Shown here: piece after piece, positions 19,301-64,000 of the stretch
How the letters are laid out: the number at the start of each line of letters is the position of its first letter
Position numbering within the stretch: the stretch's first letter is position 1
Notes under the pieces: generated by a model
Databases searched by the model: none
The model's input: the letters and a program-made list of their open reading frames with translations, nothing else
Told to the model about the DNA's origin: nothing
Assembly (NCBI GenBank): GCA_903813345.2
Contig: CAIIXF020000002.1
Span: forward strand, 22,396,455-22,460,454
Reading direction: 5' to 3'
Source: Owenia fusiformis
Lineage: Eukaryota; Annelida; Polychaeta; Sabellida; Oweniidae
Length of the DNA: 64,000 nucleotides
Made by a program: the position numbers and the translations under genes

Positions 19301-20071
19301 GTTATCTTTGATTGGTATAAACTAAATGTGGGACTGTTCAATTGTTAAAAAATATCATGTCCTTTTATGGGGAAAGCTCAACATTGTGAAAATACAAAAA
19401 CTGGTCAAGTTAGGTGATTCTGTCTTCTCCTGGTCAATTTACTCCAAAGAGAGTTGATAATATACTAAGATCTGGAAAAAAGGTAAAAATAAATCCCTGA
19501 GATCTGAGGGTATTATCCCTTGTCTTATAGCACACCTGGAGCCGATGATATTCAATTATGACACACTGTTATTAATGATTACCTGTATCGATGAATTATG
19601 AGTAATATATAATTATACATACTCACCTGTACTCACCTTTATGTACTACATTACTATAACATACCTGTCCATTCATAATTCATATAAGTTGGAGCACCTG
19701 CGTACAACATGTTTTTGAATATTCACTTGTAGATTGAATTAAACACTTGTAATGTATTGTGTAATCTTATGTTGTGCCTCTAAGCTAAAAACTACTTAAT
19801 CAAAAATAACTAGTAATTAGTATGTCATCAGAAGGGAACTAGAAATTGGCATGTTTTGGGTATATATGTGTGCATTAAAAAGATGTTTAGTGGAATACTT
19901 TTGTACGTAGTAATGTGACCCATAAATGTAATGTTTGAAATATACAGCTGTAAGTGGAACACCTTCCAAGTGGAACACTTTTTTAAGTACCAAAGGTGTT
20001 TCGCTTAAACATCTGCTGTTCTTTTGAAAGCTTGAGAGTTCTGTTAATTTACTGTTCATGTATATCTCCAG
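16380..20071 (+). other. Cadherin intron A-B
   Basis: 3.7-kb phase-1 intron bounded by GTAGGT and TCTCCAG. It contains a G13 tract at 17624-17636 and, 64 bases after the donor, a short segment (16443-16495) that resembles one just upstream of exon C. Nothing coding is evident. Confidence 0.8.
17624..17636 (+). repeat. G13 homopolymer
   Basis: Thirteen consecutive G in a cadherin intron, following a pyrimidine-rich CCTACCTACCC segment about 30 bases upstream. Confidence 0.9.
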
Positions 20072-20415
20072 GTCTGATAACCACTGTCGGGACTCTAGAT
20101 CGTGAGACAATCTCCCTCTACTCACTAACTGTGCGTGCTTACGATGGCAGCCAGAGCTCATTCTGCGACGTCAATGTCAACGTCACAGATATCAACGATG
20201 AATACCCACAATTCTTACAACAGTGGTATTACTTCGATGTGGCGGAGGACACACGTATTGATACAATTGTCGCAAGGATATCAGCGATGGATAAAGATCA
20301 AGGACAGAATGCATTGGTGCATTACAGAATGGAGTCGGAATGGGGTCGGGATAAATTCTCACTAGATGACAGCACTGGCATGATTAAACTTGTCGGGAAA
20401 CTGGATTATGAGCAA
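20072..20415 (+). CDS. Giant cadherin, exon B
   Basis: A 344-nt exon after TCTCCAG and before GTAAGT, running from phase 1 to phase 0. Its first bases complete the glycine codon split with exon A. It encodes GLITTVGTLDRETISLY..., the linker DINDEYPQF, and most of the next repeat through AMDKDQGQN to KLDYEQ. The LDRE, DIND and DKD motifs are the expected calcium ligands. The linker ends in Glu instead of Asn. A minus-strand open frame across this exon (19817-20161) is only its shadow. Joining to exon A is supported by phase and by continuity of the cadherin fold. Confidence 0.95.
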
Positions 20416-20490
20416 GTAAGTAGTGACGGTTTGTTCATGTTCGGAATATTTTCCATAATCGTGTTTTTATCCAGTTAAAAATGCATGTAC

Positions 20491-33180: not shown

Positions 33181-33375
33181 GTGAGACCCATAATGCAACA
33201 GACATAATGTCTAATCACGGTCCTATTATCATTTTGGAATCAAATAAAAATATTCTGTATTGGTCATGTGATAAGGGAAAAGCGAGGATTTGCATATTGG
33301 CTGATTTCAGAAATTGAAGCAATCAAAACGAAATATATTTTAAATGTGATTATGACATCACAATTGTTTTTTCAG

Positions 33376-34285
33376 GTGACTGTCATTCTACAAGATGTCA
33401 ATGACAACAGCCCTCAGTTCATATCCCCATCCAGCATCAAAGTCTCAGAGAACAGCCCAAGCGGGACACCTGTATTTCGTGTTGAGGCCACAGATCGTGA
33501 TGACAGCTCCAATGCAATCATTGAATACCGTCTCGTGACAAATCCTGGCGGGAAATTCGACATCAACCCGGTAACTGGTGATCTGAAAGTCAATGGTCAG
33601 ATCGATCGTGAAACCAGAGGGGAGTACTCGTTAAATGTAACAGCCACAGATAAAGGTCGTCCCGCCAAATCAGCTTGGCAAATGTTGGATGTTACCGTTA
33701 GAGATGTAAATGACAATCCACCCATGTTCGATCCTGAGTTTTACAGTACAACCATCGCAGAATCTGTCAAAACTGGTACTAGCTTACTGACAGTACGTGC
33801 CACAGACTTCGATATTGGTCAGAACGCTGAAATCAGGTATTTCATCGTGGGAGGTGACACAAACAGTGATTTCACCATTGATTCACATGTAGGTGAGTTA
33901 CGTACATTAAGACAGTTAGACTATGAAAGAAAAGCTAGTTATGAACTCCTGATTCAAGCTCAAGACCTCGGAGCCACCCCTCTGTCTGATACAGCAACAG
34001 CGACCATTACAATCACTGACATTAACGACTGTGCCCCGATCTTTGTCGATTCACCTTATAAGGCATATGTCCAAGAACACATGTCGGATTTACCAGTATT
34101 TGTGATGCAAGTTACCGCGAGGGATGACGATGCGCCATCTAATGCCCAGTTGAGGTACTACATTCAGAACCAAGGCCAGGATATATTCCGCATTGATCCC
34201 GACACCGGCATCATCAAAGCGCACCAATCTCTAGATCGTGAGAGCCAATCAGAATACAAGTTTACAGTCACTGCCACAGACTCAG
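33376..34285 (+). CDS. Giant cadherin, exon E (nearly three repeats)
   Basis: A large 910-nt exon after TTTTTTCAG and before G|GTAAGT, running from phase 0 to phase 1. It starts VTVILQDVNDNSPQF and encodes about 303 residues with linkers DVNDNSPQF, DVNDNPPMF and DINDCAPIF. It ends in LDRESQSEYKFTVTATDS, so the next exon should begin by completing a glycine-like codon. Calcium motifs include SEN, ATDRD, IDRE, ATDFD, LDYE and LDRE. The third linker carries Cys where Asn is canonical, an unpaired cysteine at a calcium site. The open frame extends upstream to 33268 only by reading intron sequence. Confidence 0.96.
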
Positions 34286-36388
34286 GTAAGTAACTGCATT
34301 TCTGTAGTCTTTTTGATGCTGAACACTTCCATGTGTGTTCCCCCCAGAAATGGGGCACCATGAACATGTTAAAACCTTTTATTAGTGAGTTTGTCTTGTT
34401 TATTTTTACTTATATTGTATAAATGTCACCCTAGAAATCTTAGAATGTGTGAAGTTGCTACCTAAAGACCATTGACATGATGTAGTTAGGTTATCAGATA
34501 ATTAATGGTTCCTTTTGCCATTTGCCACCACCCGTGCTATCATTTAGATAAAATGCTGCTAGGGTTACAGGGGCAGAGACAGATTGGCTGCATATTTAAA
34601 GAATTATTAAACAATATGCACCAATGACATAAATGTTACAATTCAGTTGGTGAATTCAAAGTTGGAGTTTTTAATTTTAAATGAGAAAGAACTAACATGT
34701 TATAATATGATCTAATTTGGATATTTCCTGAGTAAAGATGATGAAATCCAGTGAATTATATGTAGTTGAAAAGAAAAGAAAAATTCCACAAATCTACACT
34801 AAAATTGAGGTTGACACTCCATACTCTGTTATTAGGTGTAAATTGGCAACTATAAAACATGATCTGATGGCAGGCTAAGCCTGGGGCAGAGAGGGTCAAA
34901 GATTAAACAAATACACGTTTTTCACCCCTGTATCTCATCAGATCTAGGAATAATTTTGAGTAAAGCTCACAATGATCTCAGTCTTGATGTTGGTCAGTTT
35001 TTTGAATTAAATCGAGCTGAATATATGTTTGTCAAATATTGCCCATTGTTTCATTTCGATTCCAAGGATTGAGTCTTGCGATGGGGATGCTTAGTGCATT
35101 TAGATAATATTCATGGGGACAATATATTTTTTTAGTAGATCAATTTATGATTCTTTGAAAATTGTGTGATGACTTATTTTTGAAATAATGACATATGGTA
35201 TTTGAGAAACAGCCTGCTATTTTGATGGTTTTTGCCCCAAGACCAAGAGATTAATGGTAGGCATTTAGCTGTGACACTTTAACAAATCAAATTATACAAA
35301 GAGTAGAATACTTTGTGTTTTCCCATTCTAAGGAAGACCAAATTACTTAAAGTTCTCTTCGCTGGAATGATCAGATATATAGTACATTCTGCAGAAATGT
35401 ATAACACATGTGAAAGATCACAAAACCTGCAGCTTTGATTCTATGTTTTTGTGCTAGGGATAAACTTACATCTAGAATAATTGGCCTGAAGTGTGGGTTT
35501 AACATTAACCTGTCTCCCATCAGGGTATACATCAGATCTCAACGGATCATCATCAAATTACACGGATGGGCTTTCAATTCATTTTTTGTCGTGAGCCGAA
35601 ACTGTGAAATGAAGACAAGAAATACAGAGAGAACTGATGAAGGAACTGGTTTTTCTTTAAATGGGAGGTATTGGCCACCTCAAAACAAGAATTGGCCAAA
35701 TCCTCAAAACAAGAGGGATTCGGATTATACTAAATGGGGTTATCGATTCCTGCCTTCTGCTAATAAAATTCCTACATGCTGAGACTGTCATACTGATAGG
35801 GTTCTATGTGGTCAGTTCTTGGAGTGAATTGAAGGAAGTTTTTCTCTCATTTGATACATCGGCCTGTGTTAGGAATCGGCACTTGAATTGATGCAAATAT
35901 AGTATATATACAGAAAAATAAGGAGATATCACATTTTAGTATCATTGTCAAACTTTATTTAAGAATACTAAGCTTTTCTAAAGTAAGTCGCCACGTAAAA
36001 TCATCTGAACCTTGTAACTGTTTCATCATTGGATAGATTCTTATAAATCGTAAGCTGGTCCTAGACTGAAGAAAATAGGCTGTGCTGGTCTCAGTGTAGA
36101 ATATGTCTAGTCTGGGTCAGAATGCCTGCTTTACTAACTACTGGGTTACAATTTGGCTGGTCAGTGTTTACCTTGGGTAAGTGTATACCCCTATACACTA
36201 CATTCCTGCACACCTCTCTAGCTATTGCTCTCTTTTTGCTGCCTCTTATTTTACATGGTAAATTGAGTGTTTGTGACTTTTGGGACCACCTTATAGTATA
36301 GCTGTTCAGTTTAGAGAGAGAATTTACAGACAGTGTTCCCTGATATACTCCACATATTGAGTGGAGGTGGGAATGGGGGCTGGGGAGA

Positions 36389-52317: not shown

Positions 52318-52817
52318 NNNNNNNNNNNNNNNNNNNNNNNNNNNNNNNNNNNNNNNNNNNNNNNNNNNNNNNNNNNNNNNNNNNNNNNNNNNNNNNNNNN
52401 NNNNNNNNNNNNNNNNNNNNNNNNNNNNNNNNNNNNNNNNNNNNNNNNNNNNNNNNNNNNNNNNNNNNNNNNNNNNNNNNNNNNNNNNNNNNNNNNNNNN
52501 NNNNNNNNNNNNNNNNNNNNNNNNNNNNNNNNNNNNNNNNNNNNNNNNNNNNNNNNNNNNNNNNNNNNNNNNNNNNNNNNNNNNNNNNNNNNNNNNNNNN
52601 NNNNNNNNNNNNNNNNNNNNNNNNNNNNNNNNNNNNNNNNNNNNNNNNNNNNNNNNNNNNNNNNNNNNNNNNNNNNNNNNNNNNNNNNNNNNNNNNNNNN
52701 NNNNNNNNNNNNNNNNNNNNNNNNNNNNNNNNNNNNNNNNNNNNNNNNNNNNNNNNNNNNNNNNNNNNNNNNNNNNNNNNNNNNNNNNNNNNNNNNNNNN
52801 NNNNNNNNNNNNNNNNN
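52318..52817. other. Assembly gap (500 N)
   Basis: Exactly 500 ambiguous bases, a conventional placeholder length, so the true distance is unknown. Open frames reported through it are artefacts. The first exon of the THAP transposase or the element's left end could lie here. Confidence 0.99.
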
Positions 52818-53409: not shown

Positions 53410-53795
53410 TAGAAATGTCAAACAAGAACGAGAATTAGAACTCTATTTGCTAAAAAGTAATGCATTGTTAGTTAGGTTGCATTTTTTGAAACACCCTGTA
53501 CTATTTAGTTTTCTAAGAGAGTATCTCATGAGATCGATATCCGAATTCTAGATTGTTGAGGATTGTATAAATGAGCCAATTTTATTTTTGATTTATTCAT
53601 GACTGTAAGAATGACAAAATTGTTTTTCACGCCTTGGGTGCTTTATTGTGATCAGTTTGCTAGGCGAGTGGTATGTCAAATTTTTATCATCCTAATAAAT
53701 CTTGAAAAATATAATGTTTGAACTCTGCTCAATTAAGTACAGTAAAATGATTGCCATAAAAGATGCAAATGTTTAAGCCAATTCATTTTTTCCAG

Positions 53796-55245
53796 CTTGA
53801 TACCGTTTCCATCCAAAAAGAAAAAGGAGAAATTAAGGAACAAATGGATGAGCAAAATTGGAAGGGCGGATCCCAAATCAACCAAGTGGTCTGACCTTTT
53901 GGAGCCATCACCTGATCACAGAGTTTGTTCTCATCATTTTCAAGATGGCAAGCCAACAGACTCCAACCCTCTTCCAACACTTCAACTCAGATCAAAACTG
54001 AAACATGAATCTGAGTCCCAACGTACCCAGAGAAGCGTGAAGAGAAGAAAGTTGATATTTGGAGAGTCAAATGAGCAACCCTTGCCACCCACAAATTCGA
54101 CAGAACAAGATTTCACCTCCTCGCCACCATCTGTACCAGAAACTGAAGATGACCCAAAAGTGCCTAACTTGTCCAAACCCTTGGGAAGTCCAGGGCTGGT
54201 GTTCATAATTAACATCCTACTGAATCTGTTAAGAAAAAAAACAATAGAAAACAAGGCCCTCCAAAAAGAAAATGAAGACCTGAAAAGAAAGACAAGGAAA
54301 CAGCAAGATCCAACAGTTTTTAACAGATTAAAGGTCCCAAAGGACTATCTATTTTATACAGGGCTTTCCTCAAAGGAAATGTTTGACAATTTGCATAAGT
54401 TTATAGCCCCATTTGTACGCAGACGATGGAAGGGCCTTAGTAGAGTCAGTACCAAAGTCAGAAAGTTTACCCGTGTCCCCAAGAAGTTCGGACCCCAAAG
54501 AAAGCTTTCAGGAAAAGAAGAGTTCCTGTTGACATTAATGAGATTACGCCTTGGTCTAGTATCTAAAGATTTGGCCGACAGATTCAATGTTTCAGTTACA
54601 CTTGGAAACCAAATATTTCATAGCTGGTTAACAGCTATGGCGAAAATCCTAGACAAACTGATTTTTTGGCCATCAAAGGAACAGGTTATTCTTTCAAAGC
54701 CTGCAAGATACAATCACCTGGTTGATTTAAGGTCAATTATTGACTGCTCTGAGATTTTTCTGGAAACTCCAAAGGACCCAAAGCTTCAGGCAGCTACTTG
54801 GAGTGAATACAAACATCACAATACAGGGAAATTTTTAGTTAGTGTGGCTCCAAACTCTGCCGTAACATTTGTGTCCTCTGTATACAATGGGAGAGCCTCA
54901 GATAAGGCAATTGCTATGGATTCTGGATTTATGGAAAAATTGGAGCCTTATGATATGGTCCAAGCTGATAAAGGCTTTAACCTAGATGAGGAATGTGCGG
55001 CACGAAGTGTCAATATACAAGTGCCTCCAGGTAAGCGTGGACAGGCACAAATGTCCATGGCTGCCAATAGGAAAACCAGTAGAGTTGCGAATCTAAGAAT
55101 TCTGGTGGAGCAAGTGATTAGAAGGATAAAATCTTTTCGAATAATCAAATATACTGTGCCCATAAAATTAGTTCCAGCCTTGGACAAAATAGTAAAGGTG
55201 TGTTGTGCTTTGAGCAACCTCAAACCTCCTATTTACAAGTCCTGA
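53796..55245 (+). CDS. THAP/DDE_Tnp_4-type transposase, main exon (5' exon missing)
   Basis: This 1450-nt exon follows acceptor TTTTTTCCAG and opens with one base completing an upstream codon, then LIPFPSKKKK; no ATG start is plausible here. Counting L as residue 1: residues 3-62 are the back part of a THAP zinc finger (FP, W17, C44-x2-H47 in VCSHHF), while the leading C-x(2-4)-C pair must be on an unseen upstream exon. Residues 145-170 form a coiled-coil-like KENEDLKRK segment. Residues 235-278 match a helix-turn-helix (RKLSGKEEFLLTLMRLRLGL...LADRFNVS). Residues about 310-473 are a PIF/Harbinger-like RNase-H-fold transposase, with candidate catalytic D316 (IIDCSE), D391 (QADKGF) and E438 (VEQVIRRIK), plus GRASDK at 365-370. 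The frame is intact to TGA. It probably cuts and pastes a transposon whose other gene may be the facing YqaJ gene. Domesticated use is possible but unsupported. Confidence 0.92.
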
Positions 55246-58434: not shown

Positions 58435-58755
58435 TTACTTGCAGTTACAGCATTTCCACAAGTCAGTTGCAAGTGCAACATCAATGATGTTCACACAAGT
58501 ACCATGGAACCACAAATGACACACAGTGCACTCGAGACTTTCATCAGAAGTGCTCTGTGGCTCATTCGTGACTTCTTCCCTACAGACACCACAAATATAA
58601 ATGTGTTGAGAGGATGCCCTTGCAAGAGGACCTCTTTTACCCTTTGAATGAGATTCCATTTGAGGGAGTTTACTTGCAGCGCTCACAGATGGACTCCCAG
58701 CATAGGAATGATCAATTTGAAATTCACTGGACAGACTTTTATCCACCACCCTTAA
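58435..58755 (-). CDS. YqaJ gene, C-terminal part with PHD finger (3' half of a split exon)
   Basis: Reading minus from the TTAA at 58755, this part begins LRVVDKSLSSEFQID... and stops with TAA at 58437-58435. After a low-complexity serine/lysine linker, a PHD finger occupies about 58593-58438: C-x2-C-x17-C-x2-C-x4-H-x2-C-x14-C-x2-C, with the usual Trp two residues before the last C-x2-C. PHD fingers often read histone tails, so the protein may link nuclease activity to chromatin; that is inference. The open frame continues upstream only through transposon sequence (MENNMENHEFPWK... is translated repeat). Its natural partner is the YqaJ segment at 60883-61857, with which it is in the same frame once the intervening element is removed. 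Confidence 0.88.
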   Translation of the reverse strand, partial: LRVVDKSLSSEFQIDHSYAGSPSVSAASKLPQMESHSKGKRGPLARASSQHIYICGVCREEVTNEPQSTSDESLECTVCHLWFHGTCVNIIDVALATDLWKCCNCK

Positions 58756-58950
58756 GAAAAAAGCCATGGTAACCATGGTATTCCATTTTGCGCCCATGGT
58801 AATCCATGGTTTTCCATGGAAATTCATGGTTTTCCATGGAAATTCATGGTTTTCCATGTTATTTTCCATGGAAATTCATGGACGCCCATGGTAATCTTCC
58901 ATGGATATTTACCATGATTTTCCGTGGTTTGGTAATTGGTTTTTAATGGA
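58756..58950 (+). repeat. Left terminal inverted repeat of the TTAA element
   Basis: About 195 bp, matching the reverse complement of 60690-60882 with short indels. It contains around ten CCATGG-like words and a duplicated GGAAATTCATGGTTTTCCAT unit. The inner boundary is approximate, near TCCGTGGTTTGGTAATTGG. Confidence 0.85.
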
Positions 58951-59439
58951 TGTGTCATGGAGATGTAAAATCAACAATTTTGGTAGGATTTGTATTTACC
59001 AAAATCTCCAAAATGAATGTTTTGATGATATATCCCAGTTAGACTGAGACTTATCATTGAGAAAAAAGGGTGGACATTTCATTTTGAAGGTATAGCAAGA
59101 ACATTCATCGAATGTTAGACTCAGCTTACAAATGAGAAAATATGTGAAACAGCAGAGCAGAGAGTAGGCCACAAGATTTCAAAAACAATTGTGCAAAGGT
59201 CTTTTGTGTAGATCAAGACTAGATAGAAATTGCTTATTTTTTAGGCCAAACACTTCTTTCCTTTGAAAAAGATTAAGTCAAACTAGCCCAAGCTCTGTTT
59301 TATTTCAATACTTTCTTTAATTTTCAGTTTTAAAAATCAATATGAAGTAATTTAAGAAATAAATAACTCATTTTCTTAAATTACATTTCGTACATTTGAG
59401 AATACAATCAAAAACCATGGTTTCTTTCTTTGAAGTTGA

Positions 59440-59600
59440 GAAAACTGCAATCAAAAGCCATGGAAGACGGTTGATTGCAATCGAAAGCCATGCTTTTCCA
59501 TGGTTATTTCTTTGATGTTTTGGAAAGTGCAATCAAAAGCCATGGTTTTCCATGATTATTCTTTTGATCTTTTGAAAGTCCATGGTTTTCCATGGGCTAT
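59440..59600 (+). repeat. Internal CCATGG subrepeats
   Basis: The word GCAATC(A/G)AAAGCCATG recurs at about 59447, 59479 and 59529, each followed by a CCATGG-bearing segment and TTTGAT(G/C)TTTTG(G/A)AA. It extends the CCATGG theme of the terminal repeats into the element's interior. Confidence 0.7.
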
Positions 59601-60530
59601 TTGTTTGGTCTTTTGGAAGCAGAAAAATGAATAATACATTCTGTTTCTAAATGAACTTCTCCAAATTAAGTCCCATTCAACTTTTATAAGCATATTATCT
59701 GAAAAAATCCACAGAAAAGTATATATACTTTTACAGAATTTTGACTTGAAATTGAGATGGGGGATTAAACACAAGCCTATGGCTGCAAACTGAAATGTTA
59801 TACCTAAGTGATAAAAATTCAATTTGTCTAAGAATATTATATTTAAAAAGAAGTTGCATGAAGGAAGGGGAGGGGTTAACAACACCATTTGGCTTAAAAC
59901 ATGAAACATAGTATAAGTAATTAAAATTGATTTGTCTTTGAATAGGAATAAATAATCATTTGCATAATTTTTAAATATTTGGTTGCCATTATTCTATGTT
60001 AATTAGGTGTCTTAACTCTCAAATTAATGTCAAAAGATTAATCTCTTTACAACAGATTATAAGAGTTCATTTGCATAATTCTTAAATATTCTGATCTTAA
60101 TTGTTATTATATATGATAATCTTACTCTTTCTAATGCTCCCTCTTCAGTAATTATTATTGTCTGTGAGTGTAGACAATGCAAGTCAAAAACTCATTGTTG
60201 ATCAAATAAAACCATATAGGATTTGCTCCAAGTAAAAATGTTTATTCAGTCTGCAATAAGGGAATCCAGTGAGCTGATTTTATCACTTTTTTTGTCTTTT
60301 TTTACATAAGTGCCAAAGTTAAATGATAGCAAATCCCAGCAAACAAATTATTACTTTTAATTGTGGGGTCAAATCATCAATTAAAAAAATATTAAGTAAA
60401 CAGTTCTTTGTCATATGACACTATGTACAGAATGTACTAAACATATATTCAGATTGTAAAAACATGGTTGTATTTCAGGCCTGAAACCAGCTTTTGTCAA
60501 GAAGGTTGACTTTCTCAAAGATTTTGGGGT

Positions 60531-60539
60531 GGGGGGGGG
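60531..60539 (+). repeat. G9 tract
   Basis: A GGGGT then nine-G run inside the TTAA element, in the AT-rich stretch before the right inverted repeat. Confidence 0.85.
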
Positions 60540-60689
60540 TGTCATATTCTTTTATCTATGATTAATGAGACTAATTCTCAATCCAGCTTGGATTCATTCG
60601 TTAAAATATTGATTCAATTTTGAAGATTTTGGTAAAAACAAAACCTGCCAAAATTGTTTCTTTTACAACTCAAGTGTCATGGTAAAAAC

Positions 60690-60882
60690 ATGGCATGTTC
60701 ATGAAAAAACAATTACCAAACCACCAATTACCACGGAAAATCATGGTAAATATCCATGGAAGATTACCATGGGTATCCATGAATTTCAATGGAAAATACC
60801 ATGAAAAACCATGACTTTCCATGGAAAACCATGGATTACCATGGACGCACCATGGAATACCATGGTTACCATGGCTTTTTTC
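60690..60882 (-). repeat. Right terminal inverted repeat of the TTAA element
   Basis: Reverse complement of the left repeat with short indels; the outermost 30 bp match exactly. A minus-strand frame from the YqaJ gene reads 18 bases into it before a TAA at 60868-60866. Confidence 0.85.
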
Positions 60883-61857
60883 TTAAGGGCAATTCACCGT
60901 ACAGAAGCTCTGAAGCAACATGTTGCCTCCAAAATGAAATAAGCGTAGGTAGTAGGCTATCCCAGTAAGAATTGTCAAAATGAATCCTCTCTAGGAAATA
61001 GCCATGTGTTGTATATACAAAAAAATCACAAAAGGATTTCTTCGTTACACCCATCTGCCCCTGTACTTGTGCAAAATATGGTGATGATTTCGAAAGCGTT
61101 GAATTCGCAGAGCCTGGCTTCAAGGGAATGAGGTGGGACCAATTGAGATGGGAAGGCTTCTGGTCCCTAATGGAATATGGGCATTTGATTTCACACAGTC
61201 CAACCTCGCAGCAATTACAGTTAACTACTATGTCTGGTGAAGCACCAATAAATGAAAATTCCTCCATTACTTCAAACCCTGCATCAGTGATTGTTAGCTT
61301 TGAGTGTTTCTTAGAGGCAACTTTTTTGTAGGATAATTTTGCATGGGCTTCCATGTCTTTGCCATGTTTAAGAGCAGGTGTTTGGTGACAGGTATCGTAT
61401 CCCATCACTGCCCTCACCAATGAGGTTGTATCAGCCGATGAATTTTTTAGTAAGGTTGCCGATCTTGTTTTCACTCTGTTGAAGATACTTGCGGTAATGC
61501 GCCCTTTCCTTTGATTGTGCCACTCTTTCGACGCATGCTGATCTTGTGTGGCGTTGAATAGGGAACTCCTCTCAGCTGCATTTAGTTTCAACGCAGCTTC
61601 CAGGTCTGACACTGACACTGGATGGTTAAGTGATTTCGCAACTTCAACTGGAGCCAATGGGGCCACTACAACATGTGGGACTTGCTCTTTCGTAGCCTTA
61701 AAGAGTTGGTTGACACATGATTTTGGGGCACATTGTCCAACTATTTCAAATAAATCCGTGGAAACACGTTCAGAAGAGACATAGGCTTCATCAGCCGCAC
61801 TAAATGTGCTGAAGCTTGTGGCCAACTGCTTCATAGATGTCAAATGGTTGTCTCTAT
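60883..61857 (-). CDS. YqaJ-type nuclease, central part (5' half of a split exon)
   Basis: On minus the exon starts after acceptor CTGATTTCAG at 61858; its first two bases complete an Asp codon begun in the exon ending at 63834. It encodes about 322 residues up to YGELPL at the TTAA site. The YqaJ viral-recombinase fold (PD-(D/E)XK nuclease) shows its motifs in order: EWHNQRKGRITASIF (about 61530-61485), GKDMEAH with Glu, GASPD with Asp near 61234, CEIKCPYS with Glu-x-Lys near 61192-61184, and YFAQVQGQM with Gln-x-Gln. These are the expected metal-binding and catalytic residues, so the nuclease core looks intact. By analogy to lambda exonuclease relatives it would digest DNA. The downstream PHD finger is now separated by the 2.1-kb TTAA insertion. 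The more N-terminal open frame to 61951 is intron read-through. Confidence 0.92.
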
Positions 61858-61858
61858 C

Positions 61859-63833
61859 TGAAATCAGATTTGAATAAGTAAACAATTGCAATATCTTGAT
61901 GGCATTTAAATTAATTCTGCTTAAACTTGCCATTGTCCAGTCAGTATACAAAAACTTTAGAATCTTAAGTTAAAAATCCTTTTAATGCAGACACTACTGT
62001 GCTAATGTAAACCATGGGCATCAATCAATCTATTGAAAGCCCATGTGTAAACAGATATTTTATTCATTTTCAAGTGAGAGATAACTTTTAATTTATTTTC
62101 AATTGAGGGATAATTCAAGCAAAGGAATTCAGATGAGAGGAAATGTCCCTATCAAATTACACAATACATGTACATCTGTACATGCAGCTAAACAATACAA
62201 AGGACCGTGAGTTGTTTTTAGAGTGAATCTGTGGAGCTTTTTCATGCATTTCGCTTGTATATAAAAAACATCAATACACTTTAAAACATATTATTGTTGA
62301 CTATAAGAGTGCACCTTAAAATCCTAAAAAATATTTCTCATTTTCAAGGATTATCGATGGAATAACACCCAGGCATTGTTATTTTTCAAACTTCAAACTG
62401 TAAATGGCACCCCTTCCTTAATTCCATCTGCTTGGAACTATACTATTGGATTACTATGGGTAATAGGGTAGTAGAAGGGTAATAGGATTATGGTGCAATC
62501 TTATAGTCAATAGAATGTTTTAAAGTGTATAAATGTTTTTTGGATGAAAAACACAAGCGAAATACATGAAAAAGCTCCCCAGATTCACTCTAAAAACAAC
62601 TTGGGTCCTTTATAAATACTTCAAAACACTCCTTTTAGTTTATACTTTCCCAAAATATTTCAAATATTCATCCATCATCCATCGAATAATTGTTTGTGTT
62701 GTATGTGATAGTCTCACCAACATATTTATGTGTGCCCAGTAATACACACAGGCCCAACATAACTATGAAAGTAATCTTGATCACATCTCTTTGGTTGAAA
62801 CTGCCAGCTTCTTTACCTTCCATCCCAAAGGACTCATGGAACAAAGTAAACAAAAATATGTTATAACGATTTAACAAACTAGAATGATTAAGATAAAGAA
62901 TCCACTGTTGAAAGATAGAATCAGACTGACATGATCCCTGCATACAATACACATCAGGCAAAGGAGTATCGAGTTTCAATAATGGCTGCCAATCTTCCTT
63001 GAAGGAAGTTGAAAGTTTTCATGAAGTAAAATATGGAGTCTCAGGATTTTTAAACATGACCCAGAAAACATGAGATCCTGAGCTAAAATATTTTAAAATT
63101 GAATATGTACGCTAGTTTGAACTATATCTGATTCTATCTTTATTATTCTATGATGCTATCTGATGTAAGGTACACTTTGTTTATTTGTCTAGTTAGCATA
63201 GGATTATGAATGAAAAAGGAATGGTCAAAAGAAAATCAAGTACAGTATTCAAAAGAGGATTGCACATAAACTACTGTTGATGAAAAATGAAGTAAACAAT
63301 AAAACCAAAGTGACCTCAGACCATTTAAATGCATATAAAAATCATTAAATGCTCAATTGAATTGCAATCAAATAGGGCTAGTCCCAAATTTAAATAATAA
63401 ATCAACATAAATCTAACAATTTAATACAGTAGTAGATTGGGTTAATTTGGCGCAACTTAATTTGGTGATTTTGCCATTTTTGGCATATTGGTGGCTATTT
63501 AATTTGGGTGACACCAGGGTGTGACATTGCTCTGACGCCACAATTTCAAAAAAATACAAATTGTTACATCCATTCCTACAATTATTATTATATCTAGAAG
63601 TCTTTTATTATTGAAACGATTCCCCTGAGCCAATGTAGAATTGGGAATTTCTGATTATCACTCTCATCCTTTTTAGATTTGTTAAAACTGACTTAAACAC
63701 ACCAGACAAAATTCCAAGGGATCCTTTTTAAATTATGGCGAAGATGTAAAATGGAATTACTTTCTATTTTTCCAATTTAAAGGGGGTGCCAAATTAACCA
63801 AATCTACAGTACTGCAAATAAGCTTTTAATTAC
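61859..63833 (-). other. Intron of the YqaJ gene
   Basis: About 1.98 kb between donor AAG|GTAATT (minus, after 63834) and acceptor TTTCAG (before 61857). The phases agree (1 and 1) and the joined codon is GAT. It contains a 0.4-kb foldback MITE and otherwise AT-rich non-coding sequence. The exact acceptor base is 61858, so the intron is 63833-61858. Confidence 0.8.
62197..62612. mobile_element. ~415-bp foldback MITE in the YqaJ intron
   Basis: Left arm from AAAGGACCGTGAGTTGTTTT with TTAGAGTGAATCTG and GAGCTTTTTCATG pairs with the right arm ending AACAACTTGGGTCCTTT. Arms run about 62199-62330 and 62480-62611 with modest divergence. TA lies next to both ends, compatible with a Tc1/mariner-type MITE; the exact end base is uncertain by two. 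Confidence 0.75.
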
Positions 63834-63999
63834 CTTGGTTAAAATACTGCTCTTTTTTCCATGTCTGCTCAGAGAGTTTAATAGGGGCATTTGGATTGGC
63901 TGATTCCCCAGGAACATTCCACTTACACAAAGAGGATGTGCATGTCGGGTTGGTATTGCCAGACCGGACAGCATACTCCACTCTGAATAGAAGGCCTGC
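63834..63999 (-). CDS. YqaJ gene, upstream exon (partial, runs off window end)
   Basis: Too short to stand out as an open frame alone, but clearly coding. Minus strand from 63999 gives 55 codons beginning AGLLFRVEYAVRSG, then CTSSLCKWNVP with a Cys-x4-Cys-x-Trp motif, and ending KKEQYFNQ plus one base before donor GTAATT. Phase and residue (GAT, Asp) join it to 61857. From memory, animal YqaJ proteins have a similar ALLFxxEAAVR...CTS-x3-CxW segment upstream of the nuclease, often after a SWIM-type zinc finger; this supports the assignment. The start of the gene lies beyond the window. Confidence 0.82.
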
Positions 64000-64000
64000 A

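Follow-up and report, generated by a model that had tools for sequence, protein, structure and literature searches.

Introduction

The ISL2EU elements carry two genes, one for a transposase with THAP, helix-turn-helix (HTH) and DDE domains and the other for a YqaJ nuclease, and they have AT target duplications. This is the description given in the accessible parts of two publications (PMC4482050 and PMC9179366), where the relative orientation of the genes is not stated. Here we analyse a stretch of 64,000 nucleotides from the annelid Owenia fusiformis (assembly GCA_903813345.2, contig CAIIXF020000002.1, forward-strand positions 22,396,455 to 22,460,454), hereafter called the window, in which a gene pair of this kind is interrupted by a second transposon. 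We are highly confident of the explanation put forward here, that an older ISL2EU-type element (PHIS superfamily) has a young non-autonomous transposon nested in the final exon of its YqaJ accessory gene. The pair in the window resembles ISL2EU, a member of the Harbinger-like PHIS superfamily, in combining a THAP-HTH-DDE transposase gene with a YqaJ exonuclease gene in an animal genome. It differs in its length (about 12.9 kb in the part read), in its introns and nested insertions, in the PHD finger at the C-terminus of its YqaJ protein, and in that terminal repeats were not found.

The nested element has to be compared with other groups of transposon. Its general form is that of the non-autonomous DNA transposons with long repeats, in that it has no long open reading frame (ORF), inverted repeats of ~260–280 bp, a short target duplication and near-identical dispersed copies; it is set apart by its CCCTTAAG ends and by a 2-bp duplication that is unselective. 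Elements of the piggyBac and Kolobok groups duplicate a TTAA target site, and the nested element shares with them a TTAA near each end. EnSpm/CACTA elements have CAC termini and a short duplication of 2–4 bp. The nested element is like these in its short unselective duplication and its subterminal repeats, but all 21 copies read have CCC termini instead of CAC. Tc1/mariner elements duplicate TA.

The interrupted exon

The final YqaJ exon is split in two, with one part on each side of the nested element:

60890–61858, minus strand: 5′ part of the interrupted exon, encoding the YqaJ nuclease domain and immediately preceded, by eye, by a splice acceptor AG (Pfam, ORF and exon reading)
58435–58748, minus strand: 3′ part of the interrupted exon, encoding a linker and the PHD finger and ending in the stop codon (Pfam, ORF and structure matches)

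The upstream side of the element matches YqaJ (PF09588, E 5.9e-14) and the downstream side a PHD finger (PF00628, E 5.7e-5), the latter scoring 23.5 bits, just below the curated cut-off of 24. A sequence-only reading had proposed that an element splits one exon between these two domains, and that removing it restores the frame. Both proposals hold. Excision of 2143 bp gives one open frame free of internal stops, and the joined exon measures 1281 nt from acceptor to stop, not the 1292 nt first given. The reading had deleted 2131 bases, yet the predicted empty site lacks 2143 bp; the difference of 12 is a multiple of three, and therefore the frame is kept in either case, the smaller excision leaving four spurious codons.

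With the element in place the ORF extends for 330 aa from the splice acceptor and ends ...GELPLRKKPW, of which seven codons are encoded by the element. Truncation with loss of the PHD finger had thus been correctly foreseen, although the stop had been placed six codons into the element. As far as can be judged from the sequence, the insertion would spare the nuclease and remove the PHD tail, and a protein of ordinary length would be left because the interrupted product ends seven residues after GEL, near the stops of its paralogues.

True ends of the nested element

The features of the nested element are as follows, with no strand assigned to any of them:

58749–60889 (2141 bp): nested non-autonomous transposon, CCCTTAAGAAAAAAGCCATGG...CCATGGCTTTTTTCTTAAGGG, delimited from the CCC/GGG of 20 other copies and from empty sites aligned for six of the other insertions
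58747–58748: candidate left copy of a 2-bp target-site duplication, CA (flank comparison and, by analogy, the six empty-site alignments)
60890–60891: candidate right copy of the CA duplication (same basis)
58752–58755: TTAA, internal to the terminal inverted repeat (terminal-pattern scan and flanks of copies)
60883–60886: TTAA, internal to the terminal inverted repeat (same basis)
58749–59014: left terminal inverted repeat, CATGG-rich (self-comparison and family consensus)
60617–60889: right terminal inverted repeat (self-comparison and family consensus)

The TTAA sequences with long inverted repeats inside them had been noted in the sequence-only reading, and they are present. They had been taken as a target-site duplication, which would make this a piggyBac- or Kolobok-like element with TTAA specificity, sitting in a host gene. 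That explanation accounts for a perfect TTAA at both ends, within a perfect terminal repeat, and for the frame that is restored by taking out 2131 bp. The other members of the family show where it fails. The genome (498 Mb in 525 contigs) was searched with the element, the best 40 of 131 candidates being scored in this first-look repeat search. Counted among the matches listed, at least 25 places, the window included, cover positions 1–2135 of the element. Of the 24 other full-span places we compared 20, each with 100-bp flanks, giving 21 copies with that of the window. The terminal arms of the family consensus are 87% identical over 278 aligned columns. CCC and GGG lie directly outside the TTAA positions in all 20 other copies as well as in the window. 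Where the TTAA itself carries a one-base change, at both ends of L008 and at the right end of L014, the CCC/GGG is unchanged. A genome scan for the terminal pattern TTAAGAAAAAAGCCATGG, allowing up to one mismatch, gave 206 matches (the reversed-pattern control gave 0), and a scan for the same pattern prefixed with CCC gave 193; comparison of the two scans shows an exact CCC in 99 of the first 100 terminal matches listed. The TTAA is therefore part of the terminal repeat of the element, and not a duplicated target site.

Outside CCC/GGG a direct repeat of 2 bp is present at 16 of the 21 sites, compared with 32 of 420 mispaired flank controls, and among the duplication lengths tested only 2 bp stands out. 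Just three of these 16 matching duplications are TA, and Tc1/mariner was rejected for the nested element on this count. The piggyBac/Kolobok label was rejected in turn: the TTAA falls within the repeat, and what is duplicated is 2 bp that vary in sequence.

Relatives of the insertion sites that lack the element provide a direct comparison. We searched with the joined flanks of all 21 sites, keeping one 2-bp copy in each, and the best 40 of 6136 candidates were scored, so that for any of the 21 insertions the search may have overlooked further empty sites. Of the 41 matches listed, 38 cross a junction, covering six of the 21 insertions; the other three are the two halves of the window site itself and one short match that crosses no junction. 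The length difference across the 38 junctions is mostly zero, with some of 1, 3 or 4 bases, and is never 12. When one empty place was aligned for each of the six insertions the 2-bp model fitted the junction in every case, while the TTAA model left 12 surplus bases, seen as 12 more gap columns than in the 2-bp model. The remnant expected under TTAA duplication, CCCTTAAGGG, is absent from all six, refuting that model for those six other insertions. We give the explanation by a TTAA-specific element in a host gene almost no credence. By analogy with the empty sites of these other copies, the nested element in the window would occupy 58749–60889 with a duplication of CA.

Age, coding capacity and mobilization

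The copy in the window differs from the majority consensus of the 21 copies by 12 substitutions in 2118 positions (0.57%), 11 of them private, and the other copies diverge from the consensus by 0.33% to 0.85%. These values leave out gap columns (38 in the window copy) and come from a sample drawn from the best matches, and so biased to young copies. The insertion is young, as the sequence-only reading had suggested; with divergence so low it is plausible that it is polymorphic.

The longest open stretch in the family consensus is 93 aa, and with nothing longer the family is taken as non-autonomous. Partners were looked for among the first 100 of the 193 terminal matches, and four long-spaced pairs of ends were read. 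One of these, L031 (C4:14995500–15002700), is a 6.8-kb relative with the same ends as the nested element and internal pieces partly inverted. It has only two stop-to-stop ORFs of at least 90 aa (114 and 109 aa), and L032 has a single ORF of at least 90 aa (93 aa). L034/L035 contain no ORF of 120 aa, and L033, the fourth long-spaced pair, was compared by DNA only.

The short unselective duplication is a property shared with EnSpm/CACTA. The EnSpm transposase profile PF02992 matches 14 places in the genome, nine of them equal-scoring, with an open frame of 608 aa. Two of these nine (L058 and L059) are 99.9% identical over 8.5 kb, so that this EnSpm-type family has probably been recently active. 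There is no CCCTTAAG in the two copies read, where the homology reaches the edge of the stretch and hence only one end of the family lies in both. Of the 14 PF02992 places, the nine on C1–C7 have no exact nested-family terminus at 100 kb or less among the matches listed.

The YqaJ and THAP-DDE gene pair

The remaining parts of the gene pair are:

63856–64000 (to 64023), minus strand: YqaJ exon lying upstream, which aligns with the SWIM-like region in a paralogue and runs past the end of the window (paralogue alignment)
66430–66636 in window-based coordinates, minus strand: further upstream YqaJ exon, in L021 (paralogue alignment)
53746–55245, plus strand: transposase ORF with THAP, HTH_Tnp_4 and DDE_Tnp_4 domains, in tail-to-tail orientation to the YqaJ gene (Pfam and ORF)

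The transposase ORF contains PF05485, PF13613 and PF13359; by eye, its portion before about 53797 is probably intron. A DDE match lies no more than 8 kb from 26 of the 41 YqaJ matches in the genome (window included), and all 26 pairs are arranged tail to tail; a rough uniform estimate would predict about 0.003 DDE neighbours per YqaJ match. Because it stands tail to tail with a THAP-DDE gene, as do these 26, the interrupted YqaJ exon is most likely that of an accessory gene of an ISL2EU-type transposon. The exon recognised in the sequence-only reading is real, but its gene is most likely not the ordinary one supposed there. Two copies from each of two related families were inspected by eye at the points where their homology ends, and these points are compatible with an AT duplication. 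Both genes of the window are presumed to lie within one mobile unit.

Several observations weigh against the explanation as a whole. At five of the 21 sites of the nested family (L011, L014, L017, L019 and L020) the matching 2-bp duplication is absent, and the matches listed from the best 40 of 6136 candidates include no empty relative of the window site. No transposase partner of the nested family was found in the four long-spaced end pairs or the EnSpm places. For 15 of the 41 YqaJ matches, no DDE match is listed at 8 kb or less. Around the ISL2EU copy of the window we found no terminal repeats and no AT target duplication of the form A|AT|T: there are three short candidates, compared with a shuffle mean of 0.45, and none is convincing. 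A gap of exactly 500 N, perhaps from scaffolding, lies at 52318–52817, upstream of the transposase ORF. Lastly, among the matches listed the genome contains no full close relative of the gene pair. The best-scoring other matches are 32–36% identical for YqaJ and 40% for DDE, and only fragments of the THAP and linker region reach 64–83%. For want of a full close relative the pair could be an immobile relic, or domesticated.

The latter would mean that the THAP-DDE and YqaJ-PHD genes are an immobile host pair derived from ISL2EU, and that a host gene has lost its function in the allele carrying the insertion. That only a single such pair was found among the matches listed would be expected of domestication, as would exons that read without stops, the presence of introns and the lack of detected terminal repeats. 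Yet both genes retain the tail-to-tail layout of the related families together with their DDE and YqaJ domains, and disruption of an exon would usually be harmful where the host has one copy of the gene. We consider domestication unlikely. We favour the view that the interrupted genes are, or derive from, a mobile ISL2EU copy.

The series of events could then be as follows. The nested element, with terminal repeats of about 260–280 bp starting CCCTTAAGAAAAAAGCCATGG, would have landed in the final YqaJ exon, presumably by cut-and-paste, moved in trans by a transposase not seen here. A 2-bp target duplication would have been formed without sequence selectivity. The outcome would be a nuclease of ordinary ISL2EU length, stripped of a PHD tail that probably bound chromatin.

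Some further features of the region were observed. A slice of the transposase gene (53887–54214) has full or partial copies at six further places, with 80–92% DNA identity; these are perhaps captured or decayed fragments. An imperfect inverted repeat at 62196–62614, with arms of about 131 bp (81%), lies in an intron of the YqaJ gene and is possibly a small hairpin element. Elsewhere in the window, plus-strand stop-to-stop ORFs at 19987–20478 and 33208–34293 look by eye like cadherin repeats, and probably belong to an ordinary host gene.

PHD fingers in YqaJ proteins

Is the PHD finger a regular part of these YqaJ proteins? At 17 of 18 paralogous YqaJ loci the frame stops 0–26 residues past the end of the match, and the next 1400 bases (989 for L046) contain no Cys4-His-Cys3-like pattern, though a finger might be encoded farther away. 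The 18 loci include near-duplicates (L030/L040/L047 and L026/L046). At the eighteenth (L045, within L051), which belongs to a second ISL2EU-like family, and in another copy of that family (L050), a single ORF (L050:2362–3084 and L051:3999–4721) continues from YqaJ into a PHD finger, with a tail-to-tail DDE transposase gene alongside. Comparison of paralogues across the junction, which the sequence-only reading had suggested, therefore gives a divided answer, 17 loci lacking the finger and one family, read in two copies, running into it.

These data bear on whether the PHD half was ever part of the YqaJ gene. Were the open frame across the junction due to chance, the 17 loci that end close to the match with no PHD-like pattern downstream would be just what is expected. 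Against this, the openness of the PHD side in the joined frame is matched in only two of 2000 base shuffles, and in another family a single unbroken ORF encodes both YqaJ and a PHD finger. We judge a chance frame to be very improbable, and treat the two halves as a single YqaJ-PHD exon.

The finger in the window has the Cys4-His-Cys3 zinc ligands, identified by eye. It matches the solved PHD fingers of MLL3, PHF8, PHF2 and pygopus at E 4e-5 to 4e-4, where the MLL3 score sums two weak stretches, and it has a Trp before Phe-His (WFHG), as do PHF8 and PHF2. The finger of the second family scores E 0.0029 and 18 bits in Pfam, below the cut-off of 24, and matches solved ING proteins at E 9e-9; it has KFH where ING4 shows WFH. 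The residue at this position may matter for histone binding. Leaving YqaJ genes aside, a single weak relative of the window finger occurs in this genome, at C12:18773465 (L029:3047–3208; 33%, E 6e-4), where the surrounding stretch has no YqaJ.

Aligned directly, the two fingers do not match (E 1.6). In a tree of YqaJ sequences the two PHD-bearing families are united in 0% of 200 bootstrap trees; the backbone is weakly supported (60/64), and the well-supported branches are compatible with one origin of the PHD fusion. Since the fingers do not align and the tree does not unite their carriers, two separate captures are suggested by the sequences. The accessible parts of PMC4482050 and PMC9179366 describe no YqaJ-PHD transposon protein; Repbase and subscription papers are outside the scope of this comparison.

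Implications

Nested transposons are common, and the insertion itself is ordinary. It illustrates how a TTAA at both ends can mimic a piggyBac-type site while belonging to the terminal repeat, something that is exposed by other copies and their empty sites.

According to the accessible part of PMC4482050, it is unknown what the YqaJ protein does in ISL2EU elements. The PHD tail of the window gene would probably have bound chromatin. We tentatively propose, as a possibility that we rate somewhat below even, that ISL2EU-type nucleases captured PHD fingers at least twice at the same C-terminal spot, one PHF2/PHF8-like and the other ING-like, that the finger may steer integration or timing, and that a younger transposon removed one of them by a clean truncation leaving a nuclease of standard length. 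The fusion of PHD to YqaJ in two families of one genome suggests a link to chromatin that is open to test.

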